DNA from: Pseudorhodoferax aquiterrae
GTDB lineage: Bacteria; Pseudomonadota; Gammaproteobacteria; Burkholderiales; Burkholderiaceae_C
Length of the DNA stretch: 64,000 nucleotides
Reading direction: 5' to 3'
Assembly: GCF_014652235.1 (NCBI RefSeq)
Contig: NZ_BMYK01000014.1
Location: 1-64,000 of the forward strand
Below are positions 10,904 to 19,567 of this stretch, piece after piece. Each line of letters opens with the position of its first letter. Position 1 is the first letter of the stretch. The notes beneath the pieces were generated by a model. It was given only the letters and a program-made list of their open reading frames with translations. It had not been told where the DNA came from and searched no databases. A program made the position numbers and the translations under genes.

Positions 10904-11052
10904 GCGGCTGTTGCGCAGGCGCCGAGCGGCCGGCGTTGGATCAGTACAACGATGCGTCTTTGTGCCACCGCGTGTCATGAAGGTGACTTAGGATGGCGCC
11001 TTTTTTACAAATGCGAGTGCTTCTTATTGACAGCAGCACTCTGGAAAAGTCC

Positions 11053-13140
11053 ATGCAAGACCATCGTGCCGGCAAGACACGCCGCTTTCCCCTGAACCGC
11101 TGCGCAGGCGCCGCGGCGTTGGCGCTGGCGGCGGTCCCGCCCGCATCCTGGGCCCAGGATGCGGCCACGCTGGACTCGATCCAGGTCACCGGGAGCTGGC
11201 TCGGCACGGGGTTGCAGAACAGCGTGAAGAACTTCGCGGGGGCACGCACCGTGGTCGACCGCGCGGACATCGCCGATACCGGCGCCACCAGCATCGGCGA
11301 TGTGCTGCGCCGCATTCCGGGCGTGCAGTCTTCCGACAACTCCGGCACCGCCGGCAGCGCGATCTCGCTCAACGTGGGCGTGCGCGGCCTGACCGGGCGC
11401 TACAGCCCCCGCTCCACCATCCTGCTGGACGGCATTCCGCTGGCGGTGGCGCCCTACGGCCAGCCGCAGCTGTCGTTCGCGCCGATCAGCCTGGCCAACA
11501 TCGAATCGGTGGACGTGGTGCGCGGCGGCGGCGCCGTGCGCTACGGCCCGCAGAACGTGGGCGGCGTCATCAACTTCACGACCCGCCCCGTTCCGTCCAA
11601 GCGGGGCTTCAGCGGCGACGCCACGCTGCGGCTGAACCACTACGGCGAAGGCGGCGGCAGCGCGCAGTACAGCACGTACCTCGGCAGCCAGCTCGACAAC
11701 GGCCTCGGCCTGGCGCTGCTGTACTCCGGCATGACCGGCCGCGGCTGGCGCGAAGGCAGCGACGAGCGTGTGAACGACCTGGCGCTCAAGTGGCGCTACG
11801 AGCTGACGCCCTCCTCCGAGCTGTACGGCAAGTTCGCCTACTACGACGTGCGCTCGGACACACCGGGCGGCCTGACGGTGGCACAGTACAACGCCAACCC
11901 GTTCCAGAACACGCGGCCCAGCGACTACTGGAGCGGCGAGCGCAAGAGCGTGGACGTGGGCTACGTGAACACGCTGTCCGACGACCAGGAATTCGAGATC
12001 CGCGCCTACTACAACGACAGCACGCGGACCAGCGCCCTCATCAACGCCGCCCGCACGCAGATCGGCATGCAGCCGCGCGACTACGAGGTGCTGGGCATCG
12101 AGCCGCGCTACACCCACCGGCTGCGCCTGGCCTCGACCACGCACGACGTGACCGTGGGCTACCGCTACCTGCGCGAGCGTGGCAACGACCGCGTCTACAA
12201 CCTGGCCGTGGCCACCGGCCTGGCCGGCGCGACGACGCGCAACAACAATGCCACCGACGCGCATGCGCTGTACATCGACGACCGCATTGCGCTCGGCGCC
12301 TGGCGCATCACGCCGGGCCTGCGCTTCGAGCACATCACATCGGAGCGCGACACGCCGGCTACGGGCCAGGCCTTCGACATCACCAACAACAAGGGCCTGC
12401 CCTCGCTGAACGTGGCCTATCTGCTGACGCCGGCGGTCACGCTGTTCGCCAACTACAACACCTCCTACGGCCCGGTGCAGAACCTGCAGCTGAACTCGCA
12501 GTCGGCCACCAACCCGCTCAAGCCCGAGGTCGCCAAGACGCTGGAGGCCGGCGCGCGCTGGACGCAAAGCGCGAGCAGCGCCGAGCTGACCGTCTTCAAG
12601 ATGAAGTTCGACAACCAGATCGCGTTGCTGCCGGGCTCATCGACGGATTTCCGCAACATCGGCGCGACCGACCACGAGGGCATCGAGTCCGCGTTCGAAT
12701 ACGCCTTCGACAAGGGCACGGCGCTGACCGGCATGGCGGTCTACGCCAACTTCACCTACACCCGGGCAATCCAGAAGTCCGGCGCCACGGCCGGCAAGGA
12801 CGTGCCGTTCTACTCGCGCATCACCGACACGCTGGGGGCGCGCTACGAGCTGGGTGCCTGGCGCTTCAACCTGGCGACCACGCACCAGAGCAAGCAGTAT
12901 TCCGACACCGCCAACACCGAGGCCGAGGCGGCCAACGCCGGCATCGGTCGCATCCCGGGCTTCCGCCTTTGGAATCTGCATGCCAACTGGAAGGTGCCGG
13001 CCGCCAAGGGCACGGAGATCGCGCTGGGCATCAACAACCTGTTCGACAAGCGCTACTACACGCGCAACGTGGACGGCAATGCCGGACGCATGGTCGGCGC
13101 GCCGCGCATGTTCTTCGTGCAGGGCCGCTACGCGTTCTGA
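11053..13140 (+). CDS. TonB-dependent ferric-siderophore receptor (FecA-like)
   Basis: This 695-residue outer-membrane receptor has a leader ending near PASWAQ and a TonB box in LDSIQVTG. The plug has GDVLRRIPGVQSSDNSG and TILLDGIPLAVAPYGQ, followed by a 22-strand-type barrel ending in FVQGRYAF with the expected terminal phenylalanine. Its plug most resembles the ferric dicitrate receptor FecA, but it lacks the N-terminal signalling domain. The ATG at 11053 is chosen because GGAAAAG precedes it and the signal peptide follows; an upstream ATG at 10993 would add a tail. It is coupled to the PepSY gene by TGATG, pointing to iron uptake. Confidence 0.87.
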   Translation: MQDHRAGKTRRFPLNRCAGAAALALAAVPPASWAQDAATLDSIQVTGSWLGTGLQNSVKNFAGARTVVDRADIADTGATSIGDVLRRIPGVQSSDNSGTAGSAISLNVGVRGLTGRYSPRSTILLDGIPLAVAPYGQPQLSFAPISLANIESVDVVRGGGAVRYGPQNVGGVINFTTRPVPSKRGFSGDATLRLNHYGEGGGSAQYSTYLGSQLDNGLGLALLYSGMTGRGWREGSDERVNDLALKWRYELTPSSELYGKFAYYDVRSDTPGGLTVAQYNANPFQNTRPSDYWSGERKSVDVGYVNTLSDDQEFEIRAYYNDSTRTSALINAARTQIGMQPRDYEVLGIEPRYTHRLRLASTTHDVTVGYRYLRERGNDRVYNLAVATGLAGATTRNNNATDAHALYIDDRIALGAWRITPGLRFEHITSERDTPATGQAFDITNNKGLPSLNVAYLLTPAVTLFANYNTSYGPVQNLQLNSQSATNPLKPEVAKTLEAGARWTQSASSAELTVFKMKFDNQIALLPGSSTDFRNIGATDHEGIESAFEYAFDKGTALTGMAVYANFTYTRAIQKSGATAGKDVPFYSRITDTLGARYELGAWRFNLATTHQSKQYSDTANTEAEAANAGIGRIPGFRLWNLHANWKVPAAKGTEIALGINNLFDKRYYTRNVDGNAGRMVGAPRMFFVQGRYAF

Positions 13141-14246
13141 TGAAGCTGCGCCCGTTGTGGCTGAAGACCCACCGCTGGACGGCACTGTCCATCGGCTGGC
13201 TGCTGGTCATGTCCGGCTTCACCGGCGCCGTGCTGGTGGCGGCGTTGCCGCTGGACCAATGGTGGCGCGCAGACCTGTTCCAGGCCCGCACGCCGGGGCC
13301 GCCGTCCACGCCGCTTCAGCCGCTGGTCGACCGCGCCCGCGCCGAGTTCGGCCCGGCCGCCACTTTCACGGTCCGGCCTGTGCGCGCCAGCGGCGAGAGC
13401 CTGCGCATCATGGTGCGCGGCAACTGGAGCGGCACCCTGTTCATCGACCCCGTCACAGGCGAGGAACAAGGCCGGCGCGGCGAGACCGAGGGTTTCCTCA
13501 ACACCGTGTTCAAGCTGCACAGCGCGCTGTGGCTGCAGGAGATCGGCAAGGCGATCCTGGCCGTCGCCGCGCTGGTCTACCTGCTGCTGCTGTTCACCGG
13601 TCTGGTGCTGTGGTGGCCCAAGCGCTGGCCGCCTTCCTGGCGCATCGCGCTGGACCGCGGGCTGCCGCGCGCGCTGTTCGACCTGCACCGCGTCGGCGGC
13701 GCCGCGCTGGGGCTGCTGATCGCGGTCAGCGTGGCCAGCGGCGCTTACATGGCCTGGCGGCCCTTGGGCGGCTTCGTCACCATGCTGGCGGGCCAGGACC
13801 CCACCGAGCCGCCCAGGCTGGCGAAGCTGCAAACTGCCGGCCCACGGCCAACGCTGGACCAGCTGGCCGCGACGGCGCAGGCCCGCTTTCCGGAGGGCGC
13901 CATCGGCTATCTGCAGCTGCCGGCACGGCCCGACCGGCCGGTGCGCATCCGGCTGCAGCTGCCCGATGACCCCCACCCCAACGGCCTGACCTCCGTCTGG
14001 CTGCACCCGCAGAGCGGCGAGGTGCTCGCCACCCACCGCTGGAACGAACTCGACCCCGGCGCCAGCGCCGTCGCCTGGGTCTACCCGCTGCACACCGGCG
14101 TGCTCGGCGGCGTCTGGCTCGAACTGGCGGTGGCCGGCGGCGGCCTGGTGCTGGCCAGCCTGGGCGTCACAGGCATCTGGCTCTGGTGGCGCCGGCGCAG
14201 CCCCCCCCGCGCTGCGCCTGCGGGGGCGCTGCGCCAGAATCCGTAA
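13140..14246 (+). CDS. PepSY-associated transmembrane protein (iron-uptake reductase type)
   Basis: This is a 368-residue inner-membrane protein of the PepSY_TM family with four main helices. The first is HRWTALSIGWLLVMSGFTGAVL, and there are periplasmic PepSY-like segments between helices. Conserved histidines in KTHRW, FKLHSALW and FDLHRVGG could bind haem. Such proteins follow siderophore receptors and are thought to help release or reduce iron. The ATG shares a base with the receptor stop codon. The exact reaction is inferred. Confidence 0.82.
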   Translation: MKLRPLWLKTHRWTALSIGWLLVMSGFTGAVLVAALPLDQWWRADLFQARTPGPPSTPLQPLVDRARAEFGPAATFTVRPVRASGESLRIMVRGNWSGTLFIDPVTGEEQGRRGETEGFLNTVFKLHSALWLQEIGKAILAVAALVYLLLLFTGLVLWWPKRWPPSWRIALDRGLPRALFDLHRVGGAALGLLIAVSVASGAYMAWRPLGGFVTMLAGQDPTEPPRLAKLQTAGPRPTLDQLAATAQARFPEGAIGYLQLPARPDRPVRIRLQLPDDPHPNGLTSVWLHPQSGEVLATHRWNELDPGASAVAWVYPLHTGVLGGVWLELAVAGGGLVLASLGVTGIWLWWRRRSPPRAAPAGALRQNP

Positions 14247-14251
14247 AAGAA

Positions 14252-14271
14252 AACTGTTTTTTCATACAGTA
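14252..14271 (+). promoter_or_regulatory. LexA (SOS) box
   Basis: The core CTGTTTTTTCATACAG (14254-14269) matches the proteobacterial LexA consensus CTGT-N8-ACAG exactly, flanked by A on the left and TA on the right. It ends 15 bases before the ATG of the radical SAM gene. It sits after the stop of the PepSY gene and inside the only gap before the DNA-repair-like operon. This suggests the operon is held off by LexA and induced by DNA damage. Confidence 0.85.
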
Positions 14272-14284
14272 TCATGGCGCTGCC

Positions 14285-15559
14285 ATGGAACTGGACCGCA
14301 AGCTCGCCATCCTCGCCGACGCCGCCAAGTACGACGCCTCCTGCGCGTCCAGCGGCACCACCGCGCGTGATTCGGTCGGCGGGCGCGGCATCGGCTCCAC
14401 CGAGGGCGCCGGCATCTGCCACAGCTACGCGCCGGACGGCCGCTGCATCTCGCTGCTCAAGGTGCTGCTGACCAACTGGTGCCTGTACGACTGCCTGTAC
14501 TGCGTCAACCGCGTCAGCAGCAACGTGCCGCGCGCCCGCTTCACCACCGAGGAAGTGGTCCAGCTCACGCTGGATTTCTACCGGCGCAACTGCATCGAGG
14601 GGCTGTTCCTGTCCTCCGGCATCATCAAGAGCCCGGACCACACCATGGAACTGGTGGTCGAGGTGGCCCGCAGCCTGCGCGAAGACCATGACTTCCGCGG
14701 CTACATCCACTTGAAGACCATTCCGGAAGCCAGCCCGGACCTGCTGGCCCGCGCGGGCCGCTATGCCGACCGCCTGAGCATCAACATCGAACTGCCGACC
14801 AGCGAAGGTCTGGTGGCCCTGGCGCCCGAGAAGGACGGGCAGGCGATTCGCCGCTCCATGGCGCGGCTGCGCGTGCACATCGACGACGCCAAGGGCGAGC
14901 AGGCGGCCGTGCGGCCCACCACGCTGCCCGCGGCGCGCCCCCGGCCCGCCGCGGCGCCGCGCTTCGCGCCGGCTGGCCAGAGCACGCAGATGATCGTCGG
15001 CGCCGACGCCGCCAGCGACCGCAGCATCCTGGCCACGAGCGCCACGCTGTACGGCGCCTACAAGCTGCGCCGCGTGTACTACTCGGCCTTCAGCCCCATC
15101 CCCGACGCCTCGCGCCAGCTGCCGCCTGCCGCGCCACCCCTGGTGCGCGAGCACCGGCTCTACCAGGCCGACTGGCTGATGCGCTTTTACGGCTTCGCGC
15201 ACGACGAGATCGCCGGCGGCAGCGACGGCATGCTGGCGCTGGACATGGATCCCAAGCTCGCCTGGGCGCTGGCGCACCGCGAGCGCTTCCCGGTCGACCT
15301 CAACCGCGCGCCGCGCGAGTTGCTGCTGCGCGTGCCGGGCCTGGGCGTGAAGTCGGTCGACCGCCTGCTGGCCGCACGCCGCCTGCGCGTGCTGCGCGTG
15401 GACGACCTCGGCCGCCTGGGCGTGCCGCTGCGCAAGCTGCTGCCCTTCGTGAGCGTGCCGGGCGCCACCGCGCGCGGGCTGGACAGCGCGCAGCTCGCCG
15501 CCCGGCTGCGCCCGCCGCCGCGCCAGGCCTCGCTGTTCGATGCCCATGCAGACGCTTGA
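14285..15559 (+). CDS. Putative DNA modification/repair radical SAM protein
   Basis: This is a 424-residue protein of the radical SAM family that is linked to uracil-DNA-glycosylase-like partners. The iron-sulfur motif CLYDCLYC (C-x3-C-x2-C) lies near residues 63-70. A helix-hairpin-helix DNA-binding motif (DLNRAPRELLLRVPGLGVKSVDRL) is near residue 345. Length and the conserved N-terminus (KLAILADAAKYDASCASSG) fit the family (TIGR03916-type). The reaction is unknown; the family resembles spore photoproduct lyase in being a DNA-directed radical enzyme. The start ATG follows the LexA box; an ATG at 14274 is out of frame. It overlaps the UdgX gene by 20 nt. Confidence 0.9.
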   Translation: MELDRKLAILADAAKYDASCASSGTTARDSVGGRGIGSTEGAGICHSYAPDGRCISLLKVLLTNWCLYDCLYCVNRVSSNVPRARFTTEEVVQLTLDFYRRNCIEGLFLSSGIIKSPDHTMELVVEVARSLREDHDFRGYIHLKTIPEASPDLLARAGRYADRLSINIELPTSEGLVALAPEKDGQAIRRSMARLRVHIDDAKGEQAAVRPTTLPAARPRPAAAPRFAPAGQSTQMIVGADAASDRSILATSATLYGAYKLRRVYYSAFSPIPDASRQLPPAAPPLVREHRLYQADWLMRFYGFAHDEIAGGSDGMLALDMDPKLAWALAHRERFPVDLNRAPRELLLRVPGLGVKSVDRLLAARRLRVLRVDDLGRLGVPLRKLLPFVSVPGATARGLDSAQLAARLRPPPRQASLFDAHADA

Positions 15560-16994
15560 GCGCCGGCACACCGTCCGGCTGGCCGCGCCCGACGACCTGG
15601 CCGGCTTCAAGGCCGCCGTGCGCCGCCTCGTGGCGCAGCAGGTGCCACCCGAGGCCGTGCAATGGCAGCTGGCCGATGCCGGCGACCTGTTCGACGACGC
15701 CCCCCCAGCGCCCGACGCCGACCCCGTTGCGCCGTTCCGCCTGCCGGCCGGCATGGTGGCGCTGCTCGAACGCGCCGCGCTGCACCGCGACCGCGGCCGT
15801 TTCGCACTGCTGTACCGCCTGGTCTGGCGCCTGCTGGCCGAGCCCGGTCTGCGCGACGACCCGCTCGATGCCGACCGCCTGTTGGCCGAACGCATGGCGC
15901 GCGCGGTGCGGCGCGACATGCACAAGATGACGGCCTTCGTGCGCTTTCGCCCCGTGCCCGGCGGCCGCCACATGGCCTGGTTCGAACCCGAACACCACAC
16001 GCTGTGCGCCACGGCGCCCTTCTTTGCGCGCCGCTTCGCGCAGATGGAGTGGGCCATCCTGACGCCCGAGCGCAGCGCCCAGTGGGATGGCCATGCGCTG
16101 GCCTTCGGCCCCGGCGCGCGCCGCGAAGACGCGCCCGGCCCCGACGCCGGCGAGCAGCTCTGGCTCACCTACTACGCCCACATCTTCAACCCGGCCCGCC
16201 TCAAGCCCGCGATGATGCAAAAGGAGATGCCGCGCCGTTACTGGAAGAACCTGCCCGAGGCCCAGCTGATCACCCCGCTCATGCACGCGGCCGCCCAGCG
16301 CAGCGGCCGCATGGTCGAAGAGGCGGCGAGCGATCCGCAGCACCGCCGGCCGGCCGCCTCCATCGCGCTGCGGCTGGACCAGCGCCCGGCCGAAACCGCC
16401 GCCCCGGGCACGCTGGACGCGCTGCGCCTGGCCACGGCCCAGTGCCGCGCCTGCCCGATCGGCCAGCACGCGACCCAGGCCGTGCACGGCGAAGGGCAGC
16501 CGGGCGCGGCGCTGATGCTGGTGGGCGAGCAGCCCGGCGACCAGGAAGATCTGCGCGGCCAGCCCTTCGTCGGCCCCGCCGGCCAGCTGCTGCGGCGCGC
16601 GCTGGAGCAACTGGGCTGGTCCCGGGAGGCGCTGTACCTCACCAATGCCGTCAAGCACTTCAAGTACGAACTGCGCGGCAAGCGCCGGCTGCACAAGACC
16701 GCCGGCCAGAAGGAGGCCGCCATCTGCAGCCAGTGGCTGGAGCGCGAAATCGGCCTCGTGCGCCCGCGCGCGGCCGTGGCGCTGGGCGCCACCGCCGCCC
16801 GCGCGCTGCTGGGCCGTGCCGTGCCCATCGGGCAGACGCGTGGCCAATGGCTGCGCCGGGCCGACGGCCTGCCCGTGCTCGTCACGCTGCACCCCGCTGC
16901 GCTGCTGCGCATGGACACACCGGACCCCGAAGCGGCCTTCGCCGACTGGCTGGCCGACCTGCGCGCAGCCACGCCTATCATGGCCGCCCCATGA
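15540..16994 (+). CDS. DUF4130 - UdgX-type uracil-DNA glycosylase fusion
   Basis: This is a 484-residue two-domain protein. Residues 1 to about 265 are the DUF4130 (TIGR03915-type) domain found next to this radical SAM family. The remainder is a UdgX-like uracil-DNA glycosylase with motif GEQPGDQED near residue 330. It also has the loop KRRLHKT near residue 385. In characterised UdgX proteins that loop's histidine forms a covalent bond with DNA at uracil sites. Cysteines before and within the domain (CRACP and later) fit a 4Fe-4S cluster. ATGs exist at 15540 and 15546. It overlaps the next gene by ATGA. Confidence 0.92.
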   Translation: MPMQTLERRHTVRLAAPDDLAGFKAAVRRLVAQQVPPEAVQWQLADAGDLFDDAPPAPDADPVAPFRLPAGMVALLERAALHRDRGRFALLYRLVWRLLAEPGLRDDPLDADRLLAERMARAVRRDMHKMTAFVRFRPVPGGRHMAWFEPEHHTLCATAPFFARRFAQMEWAILTPERSAQWDGHALAFGPGARREDAPGPDAGEQLWLTYYAHIFNPARLKPAMMQKEMPRRYWKNLPEAQLITPLMHAAAQRSGRMVEEAASDPQHRRPAASIALRLDQRPAETAAPGTLDALRLATAQCRACPIGQHATQAVHGEGQPGAALMLVGEQPGDQEDLRGQPFVGPAGQLLRRALEQLGWSREALYLTNAVKHFKYELRGKRRLHKTAGQKEAAICSQWLEREIGLVRPRAAVALGATAARALLGRAVPIGQTRGQWLRRADGLPVLVTLHPAALLRMDTPDPEAAFADWLADLRAATPIMAAP

Positions 16995-17485
16995 AGAAGG
17001 CGCTGCTGATCGTCCACCACAGCATGACCGGCGGCACCGCGCAGCTGGCCCAGGCCGCGCTGCGCGGTGCGCAGAGCGAACCCGGCGTGGCGGCGCGGCT
17101 GCTGCGCGCCGCGCAGGCCGGCCCCGCGGACCTGCTCGGGGCCGATGGCTACCTGTTCGCCACGCCCGAGAACCTGGCCGCCATCGCCGGCCTCATGAAG
17201 GACTTCTTCGACCGCTGCTACTACCCGGTGCTGGACCGCATCCAGGGCCGGCCCTATGCCACGCTCGTCTGCGCCGGCAGCGACGGCAGCAACGCGGCGC
17301 GGCAGATCGCGCGCATCGCCACGGGGTGGCGGCTCCGCGCCGCGGCCGAGCCGTTGATTGTCTGCACCCATGCGCAGACGCCCGCGCAGATCCTCGCGCC
17401 CAAGCAGATCGGCGCAGCCGACTTGCAGCGCGCCGAGGAACTCGGCGCGGGGCTGGCCGCGGGCCTGGCACTGGGCGTGTTCTGA
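16991..17485 (+). CDS. Flavodoxin / NADPH-dependent FMN reductase-like protein
   Basis: This 164-residue protein has a flavodoxin-like fold: LLIVHHSMTGGTAQLA forms the FMN phosphate loop near residue 5, and FATPENLAAIAGLMKDFFDR is near residue 55. It begins at an ATG overlapping the UdgX stop codon, so it is probably translated with the radical SAM pair. Radical SAM enzymes need a one-electron donor, and a flavodoxin-like protein is a reasonable candidate. That role is inference from position only. It could also be a general quinone or FMN reductase. Confidence 0.8.
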   Translation: MKKALLIVHHSMTGGTAQLAQAALRGAQSEPGVAARLLRAAQAGPADLLGADGYLFATPENLAAIAGLMKDFFDRCYYPVLDRIQGRPYATLVCAGSDGSNAARQIARIATGWRLRAAAEPLIVCTHAQTPAQILAPKQIGAADLQRAEELGAGLAAGLALGVF

Positions 17486-18731: not shown

Positions 18732-19567
18732 ATGAAGAAGATCCTCGGCGTCTACAGCGCCCCCCGTCCGCACTGGGTGGGCGACGGCTTTCCGGTGCGT
18801 TCGCTGTTCGGTTACGACGGCCTGGGCAAGCACCTGAGCCCGTTCCTGCTGCTGGACCATGCGCCGCCCACGCCGTTCGGGCCGGCCGCGCAGCCGCGCG
18901 GCGTCGGCCAATCGTCTACCAGGGCGAGCTGGAGCACCGTGACTCCACGGGTGCCGGCGGCCTGATCGGCCCGGGCGACGTGCAGTGGATGACGGCCGGC
19001 GGTGGCATCCTGCACGAGGAGTTCCACTCGCGCGGCTTCACCGAGCGCGGCGGCACCATCGAGATGGTGCAGCTGTGGGTCAACCTGCCCGCCAAGGACA
19101 AGATGAGCGCGGCGCACTACCAGACCCTGCTCGACGCGCAAATCCCGTCGGTGGCGCTGCCGGTCGGCGCGGGCCGCGTGCGGGTGATCGCTGGCGCCTT
19201 CGACGGGCACCGCGGCCCGGCGCGCACCTTCACGCCCATGGACGTGTGGGACATCCGCATCGCCCAGGGCGCCGTGGCCCGCTTCGACGCCCCGCCGGGC
19301 CACACGCTGGCGCTGGTGGTGCTGCACGGCACCGTGCAGGTCAACGGCGACACCATCGCCCGCGAAGGGCAGCTGGTGCACCTGGACCGCGCCGGCAGCG
19401 CTGTGGCGATCGAAGCCAACGGCGACGCGAGCGTGCTGTGGCTGTCGGGCGAGCCCATCGACGAGCCCATCGTGGGCTACGGCCCGTTCGTGATGAACAG
19501 CGAGGCCGAGATCCACCAGGCCGTGGCCGACTTCAACGCCGGCCGCTTCGGCCGCATGGCGGCCTGA
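18732..19567 (+). pseudogene. Pirin family gene disrupted by a short deletion
   Basis: The first 59 codons (from ATG 18732, preceded by AGGAG) encode a normal pirin start ending in PRGVG. The sequence then jumps, with a frame change at 18909-18911, into IVYQGELEHRDSTGAGG and a normal C-terminal half to 19567. Compared with the family, the block that should read like EHPHRGFETVT is missing, a loss of about 31 bp. It includes two of the metal-binding histidines. The rest of the cupin fold and the second metal site (GGGILHEEFHS) remain. The break is too large for an ordinary sequencing slip. Confidence 0.85.

Follow-up and report, generated by a model that had tools for sequence, protein, structure and literature searches.

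A LexA-boxed radical SAM/DUF4130-UdgX operon of Pseudorhodoferax aquiterrae with a candidate sliding-clamp-binding tail on its radical SAM protein

The window analysed here is a stretch of 64,000 nucleotides from Pseudorhodoferax aquiterrae (contig NZ_BMYK01000014.1, positions 1 to 64,000), which carries on its forward strand an operon that is known among bacterial DNA-damage operons but is poorly understood. A LexA-type operator of the form CTGT-N8-ACAG (CTGTTTTTTCATACAG, 14254-14269) stands 15 bases 5' of the ATG at 14285 and is followed in order by a radical S-adenosylmethionine (SAM) gene (14285-15559), a DUF4130-UdgX fusion gene (15540-16994) and a flavodoxin-like gene (16991-17485). The first two reading frames overlap by 20 bases and the last two by 4 bases via ATGA, so that the operator and the overlaps described in the initial annotation are borne out. 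The radical SAM protein, which contains a PF04055 domain, scores 550.6 bits against TIGR03916 (putative DNA modification/repair radical SAM protein; curated cut-off 343.5) and thus belongs to this family, which we take to be the same as COG4277. The fusion protein scores 207.6 bits against TIGR03915 (cut-off 112.25) and 268.9 bits against TIGR03914 (cut-off 189.95), and all three members of this linked NCBIfam set are therefore over cut-off here; the names of the models state no reaction, tail or flavodoxin. The most interesting feature of the operon, absent from the initial annotation, is the pentapeptide QASLF (Q414-F418, 15524-15538) at the C-terminus of the radical SAM protein, which looks like a peptide of the kind that binds the bacterial beta sliding clamp.

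The tail was followed in 133 radical SAM proteins, 53 from the same family of bacteria and 80 from named genomes. The family sample comprises 250 genomes, 50 of which match TIGR03916, 49 of them over the cut-off, and yielded 49 loci besides the window, one genome giving two; the named-genome sample consists of the best 80 of at least 593 loci. Q414 is invariant in a first alignment, inside a tail whose length and remaining residues vary, and is kept in 43/43 sequences from several classes in a second. Instead of the QASLF of the window, other tails have QLSLF, QLALF, QMSLF, QADLF, QGDLF and similar forms, of which QLSLF is the commonest among the 80 named-genome loci and is frequent in alphaproteobacteria; a member from Bacteroidota ends in QLSLF, and one from Gemmatimonadota has QLSLW some 20 residues before its end. 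QLSLF equals the consensus QL(S/D)LF published for C-terminal beta-clamp-binding peptides of bacteria, and the clients described there carry the same kind of pentapeptide at the same end (PMC9690074, cited here and below from part of its text). Docking of the radical SAM protein on the beta clamp by means of this conserved, clamp-type peptide is accordingly proposed from the motif.

The pattern Qxx[LMI][FL] is found within the last 12 residues of 113 of the 133 radical SAM proteins, in none of the 133 partner DUF4130/UdgX proteins over the same length, and in 21 of 4123 windows of 12 residues taken from protein bodies. When the last 45 residues are considered, 49/53 family and 69/80 named-genome proteins contain the pentapeptide, against means of 3.3 and 5.0 and maxima of 11 and 12 in shuffled tails. 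It forms the final five residues in 65 of 119 matches and ends one residue earlier in 28 more. A stricter pattern, Q[LM]x[LM][FL] with x being one of eight residues, is matched by 47 of the 80 named-genome tails compared to 0.24 after shuffling; it fits only 3/53 family proteins, where the second position is usually neither L nor M.

The phylum of a Chthoniobacteraceae locus (L193) allows the tail to be compared with the presence of DUF4130. Eight of 145 genomes of this phylum, one of them L193 itself, encode a protein over the TIGR03916 cut-off; seven of the eight tails fit the pentapeptide or a hexapeptide, the eighth, QLEFL, is matched only by a widened pattern, and DUF4130 adjoins the radical SAM gene in 7/8. 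Shorter relatives below the cut-off (L260-L281, about 370 aa) are common in the same phylum and end just past a stretch corresponding to residues 347-360 here (LLRVPGLGVKSVDR, 15323-15364), picked out by eye on alignments, which we take to be a helix-hairpin-helix-like DNA-binding element. Among the 22 listed relatives of this kind none has DUF4130 within 1.5 kb, and none of the 19 readable C-termini contains the motif. Since these relatives have neither, the tail motif appears to go with the DUF4130 partnership, as judged from a sample of one phylum.

The exact operator occurs once in the window against 0.69 matches expected, at least one match being found in 49 of 100 shuffles; taken alone it is in no excess over chance there. 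Genome-wide, CTGT-N8-ACAG is present at 28 places versus 8 for the reversed pattern. The operator is considered real because it is conserved across the loci of relatives. In 47/49 family loci the 250 bases preceding the radical SAM gene contain a box that matches 7-8 of the 8 positions; within 100 bases the match is 8/8 in 34 and at least 7/8 in 46 of the 49, with Markov-shuffled controls giving means of 0.04 and 0.9 respectively, and windows 600-700 bases upstream at the same loci contain no box (0/49). Of the 13 betaproteobacterial loci among the 80, 11 have CTGT-N8-ACAG at 7/8 or better and 7 at 8/8. The sequence GTTC-N7-GTTC or its reverse complement, presumably the alphaproteobacterial LexA box, lies within 100 bases upstream in 53 of the 58 loci from alphaproteobacteria (0.2 on average and 2 at most in controls), a count based on classes assigned by hand that leaves out seven gammaproteobacterial loci, one verrucomicrobial and one unclassified locus of the 80. 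A predicted SOS-type box is kept at the radical SAM gene, in other words, while the LexA specificity switches. In the genome of P. aquiterrae itself a single LexA scores over the cut-off; its gene is preceded by two 7/8 boxes, and recA has one 7/8 box only. The SOS control that the initial annotation predicted for the radical SAM/DUF4130-UdgX pair is strongly supported by this conservation; it is not new, as SOS control of uracil-DNA glycosylase (UDG)/radical-SAM operons is already in print (PMC8565304, likewise cited throughout from part of its text).

The same combination recurs in another radical SAM family. The P. aquiterrae genome has another radical SAM gene preceded by an SOS-type box (G000:C9:96136-97188; L234, L008); it belongs to NF033668, the PA0069 type, and its product terminates in QTSLF. 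NF033668 is matched in 60 of 80 family genomes, and in the best 30 loci, which were those analysed, a QxxLF end is present in 30/30, once with one extra residue, against a mean of 4.4/30 for shuffled tails. All 30 also have a LexA-type box of at least 7/8 within 300 bases, 27 of them exact; the shuffle control covered the tails and not the boxes. On these counts two different radical SAM families share an SOS-type box and a clamp-type C-terminus. It seems fairly probable that the TIGR03916/DUF4130 and PA0069-type families are both sliding-clamp clients and form a branch of the SOS response that is conserved in several phyla.

For the operon itself we propose with moderate confidence, from comparison of sequences, that an SOS-induced radical SAM/DUF4130 enzyme is brought to the replication clamp and that UdgX is an optional addition to it. 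Cleavage of LexA after damage would free the operon, as the conserved box suggests, and the overlapping genes would allow the radical SAM protein and DUF4130-UdgX to be made together. The QxxLF motif on the variable tail of the radical SAM protein would then dock on the beta clamp much as translesion polymerases do, thereby delivering the enzyme to stalled or freshly filled DNA. There the radical SAM protein, together with DUF4130, might reverse or modify a base lesion by 5'-deoxyadenosyl radical chemistry, and UdgX, where fused, might trap uracil or abasic sites covalently in those same locations, an activity known for the UdgX of Mycobacterium smegmatis. The supply of electrons would be generic, perhaps helped in this genus by the coupled flavoprotein.

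Several observations weigh against this proposal. Ten of the 133 proteins contain neither the penta- nor the hexapeptide in their last 45 residues: the tails that fail the pattern are those of L051, L070 (broken frame) and L096 (QRGLF 63 residues from the end), five with QLGFGF or QLGFAF, and two ending in QLCLI or QLQLI. The tails of two metagenomic relatives, QLSFF and QLRFDF, fit more loosely, and a chance pentapeptide is present within the protein body in 28/133. The motif counts are not independent because the 133 proteins share ancestry and at least three of the 80 loci come from genomes already in the family sample (L135/L057, L139/L066, L144/L054). Two of the 49 family loci, L051 and L073, lack a box at 7/8 in 250 bases, and 5/58 alphaproteobacterial loci lack a GTTC-type box in 100 bases. 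Among the 50 listed structural matches of the radical SAM model there is no spore photoproduct lyase or DNA photoproduct lyase, and the DUF4130 half of the fusion protein has no recognisable relative among its 50 listed Protein Data Bank (PDB) matches, all recognised ones being of the UDG type.

The conserved tail could alternatively be a degradation signal, or a peptide that docks DUF4130, instead of a clamp motif. Short C-terminal peptides can be degrons, and the motif does track the presence of DUF4130. However, extra residues are tolerated after the motif, it recurs in NF033668, a radical SAM family whose definition does not involve DUF4130, and it matches the published clamp consensus at the published place (PMC9690074), all of which makes this explanation unlikely.

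In the radical SAM protein, the three cysteines of the CX3CX2C cluster motif (C66, C70, C73; 14480-14503) are invariant in the alignments, as are three more cysteines that are N-terminal to it (C20, C45 and C54, within 14342-14446) and could bind a second, auxiliary Fe-S cluster. No solved relative is found by sequence at an E value of 0.01. The predicted model has a pLDDT of 82.5, residues 21-58 and 415-424 being of low confidence, and its 50 listed structural matches are generic radical SAM enzymes such as HydG, BioB, MiaB, HydE, viperin and others. One family locus, L070 (G056:C1), has its radical SAM gene broken into two frames, with an additional copy of UdgX downstream. It has been suggested by a SplB-like label and by the wording 'might modify thymines' that the enzyme is a direct-reversal lyase for a UV photoproduct; SplB-like photolyases are named in a figure legend of PMC3765255, and SOS control of splB is predicted in alpha- and betaproteobacteria (PMC3323433), both sources being cited in part. 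This function is nonetheless improbable, as spore photoproduct lyase is missing from the 50 listed structural matches, and DUF4130 and UdgX would be left unexplained. In addition, the SOS-linked SplB of PMC8565304 is COG1533, which is separate from COG4277, and the splB of PMC3323433 may be a PA0069-type gene rather than a TIGR03916 gene.

The DUF4130-UdgX protein is composed of a DUF4130 domain (residues 87-240, 15798-16259; PF13566, 127.3 bits) and a UdgX domain (residues 243-476, 16266-16967; TIGR03914, PF03167). The whole-protein model has a pLDDT of 90.6, its UDG half matches UdgX, and the nearest solved relatives of the UdgX domain are the M. smegmatis UdgX entries at 46-48% identity. 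The features associated with covalent capture of abasic DNA by UdgX are GEQPG, an R-loop with R-x-H and HPS(S/A)(L/V)(L/V)R (PMC10359453, an excerpt). The protein of the window accordingly groups with UdgX by motif A GEQPG (16524-16538), an R-loop KRRLH (16680-16694) that includes the histidine of the covalent bond, equivalent to KRRIH with H109 in the same source, and HPAALLR, a motif B with A instead of S. It thus shares GEQPG, the KRR-x-H R-loop and HPxxLLR with M. smegmatis UdgX but differs from it in being fused to DUF4130, in being placed under a LexA-type box and in lying beside a radical SAM gene. A second UdgX of the P. aquiterrae genome (G000:C15:10146-10733; L285), scoring 262.8 bits, is unfused to DUF4130 and has no LexA-type box at 7/8 in the 600 bases upstream of the match.

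DUF4130 follows the radical SAM gene in 49/49 family and 80/80 named-genome loci, and across the loci compared the constant unit is radical SAM plus DUF4130 with UdgX being optional. The UdgX motif is missing from the DUF4130 protein in 24/53 family loci, at one of which, L059, UDG follows as a separate frame. Of 23 genomes with DUF4130 alone, 21 contain no UdgX scoring above the cut-off; weaker matches, of the kind expected from other UDG-type proteins, are present in most. The idea in the initial annotation that the radical enzyme acts at or near sites marked by UdgX is weakened by both counts. They also tell against a UdgX-centred form of base excision repair, in which the glycosylase would act on uracil or ribonucleotides left by error-prone polymerases with the radical SAM protein and DUF4130 as its helpers. 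Such a scheme agrees with the reference to a putative base excision repair system in PMC8565304, and with motif A, which is GEQPG in all 95 of the 133 proteins that match a pattern also allowing A or G, but radical SAM and DUF4130 stay paired where UdgX is missing and the scheme is therefore rather improbable.

The third gene encodes a small flavodoxin/WrbA-like flavoprotein. It matches FMN_red (PF03358) modestly at 33.1 bits over a cut-off of 24, and its nearest solved sequence is the flavodoxin 2ark (E 5.1e-9), ahead of weak matches to WrbA-type proteins and quinone reductases. The gene adjoins the pair in all six genomes of the genus returned by the search, overlapping it in five according to starts inferred from alignment and separated from it by 372 bases in the sixth. 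No such adjacency is seen in the non-genus family loci (0/47) or the named-genome loci (0/80); the absence of the gene is weaker evidence at loci such as L075 or L208 because these end soon after the pair, as do L081, L087, L147 and L155. Close homologues scoring over 100 bits are present in 55/250 family genomes, namely 16/49 pair-bearing and 39/201 others, and in the 13 non-genus pair-bearing genomes with a homologue, the homologue and the pair lie on different contigs or are separated by at least 44 kb. In the 27 non-genus copies examined, no LexA-type box at 7/8 lies in the 250 bases upstream. When the frames flanking the stand-alone gene were clustered, no clear partner emerged outside the genus, a result blurred by spurious high-GC frames. 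Overall, the third gene appears to be a stand-alone flavoprotein that was put downstream of the operon in one genus, a genus-level addition whose local role in electron supply is possible. As a component of the system the flavodoxin was rejected by the survey of adjacency in relatives, the very survey that the initial annotation had named for its claim of an own electron donor. A damage-induced modification system with its own flavodoxin donor, whose radical enzyme works at or near UdgX-marked sites, would suit the three overlapping genes, their adjacency throughout the genus and the common use of flavodoxins as reductants of radical SAM enzymes, but is very improbable given the absence of the flavodoxin gene beside the pair in the loci outside the genus, the scattered and unboxed homologues and the 21/23 DUF4130-only genomes without UdgX over the cut-off.

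The operon resembles one that has been described in the SOS networks of Bacteroidetes, a two-gene COG1573-COG4277 operon involving a uracil-DNA glycosylase, in that UDG and radical SAM genes are likewise placed under an SOS operator (PMC8565304). The same paper cites UDG systems in Verrucomicrobia (Erill 2016) and Alphaproteobacteria/Caulobacter (Paes da Rocha 2008). Unlike the Bacteroidetes operon the present one is betaproteobacterial, has UdgX fused to DUF4130 and includes a coupled flavodoxin gene, and the clamp-type tail is without mention in the available part of the PMC8565304 account. The PA0069 family shares the SOS box and the terminal QxxLF but is a different radical SAM family. The word 'radical' is absent from the review of clamp clients (PMC9690074), and a 2024 paper on UDGX (PMC10776899) contains none of the words radical, SOS, operon, DUF, fused or physiological. 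A search by title and start of abstract found no report joining radical SAM to the sliding clamp, no literature match was found for UdgX together with radical SAM, and of TIGR03914, TIGR03915 and TIGR03916 only TIGR03914 was found, once and in an unrelated paper; most subscription papers and preprints fall outside these searches. The clamp-type tail on SOS radical SAM enzymes is probably new in print.

So far the radical SAM/DUF4130/UdgX set has been listed among protein families with no reaction assigned to it. A tail that docks on the clamp would point to the sites in the cell where the enzyme acts, which are replication forks, gaps and bypass patches, and would link the enzyme with DUF4130, not with UdgX or the flavodoxin. 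It would also offer a clean separation-of-function mutant of two residues, so that radical chemistry at the replisome would become directly testable. If the proposal is true, enzymes of radical chemistry reach DNA at the replication machinery by means of a peptide like the one through which translesion polymerases are recruited. The regulon responsible for the bypass polymerases would then also produce enzymes that, bound to the clamp, repair or trim whatever remains after bypass.

Some further observations concern the surroundings of the operon and other SOS sites. Anti-phage defence was considered and rejected as a role, as none of the PADLOC defence families is matched by the three operon proteins. 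Relatives are also present in 10 records of a phage collection and in 158 plasmid records. Twenty of the genome's 28 LexA-type sites were retrieved, with names such as imuA, SRAP and AlkB-like being given by eye from translations. One of these sites (G000:C8:7208-7223; L002, L213) lies between an imuA-looking gene and a divergent AlkB-like gene, whose product begins with MQTNLF, possibly an N-terminal clamp-type peptide. Directly upstream of the operator (10993-14246) the window contains a TonB-receptor-like gene, also named by eye, and after it a PepSY_TM gene that overlaps it. Further downstream, at 18732-19567, a gene starting MKKILGVYSAPRPHWVGDGFPVRSLFGYDG looks interrupted near 18910 when judged against a relative.

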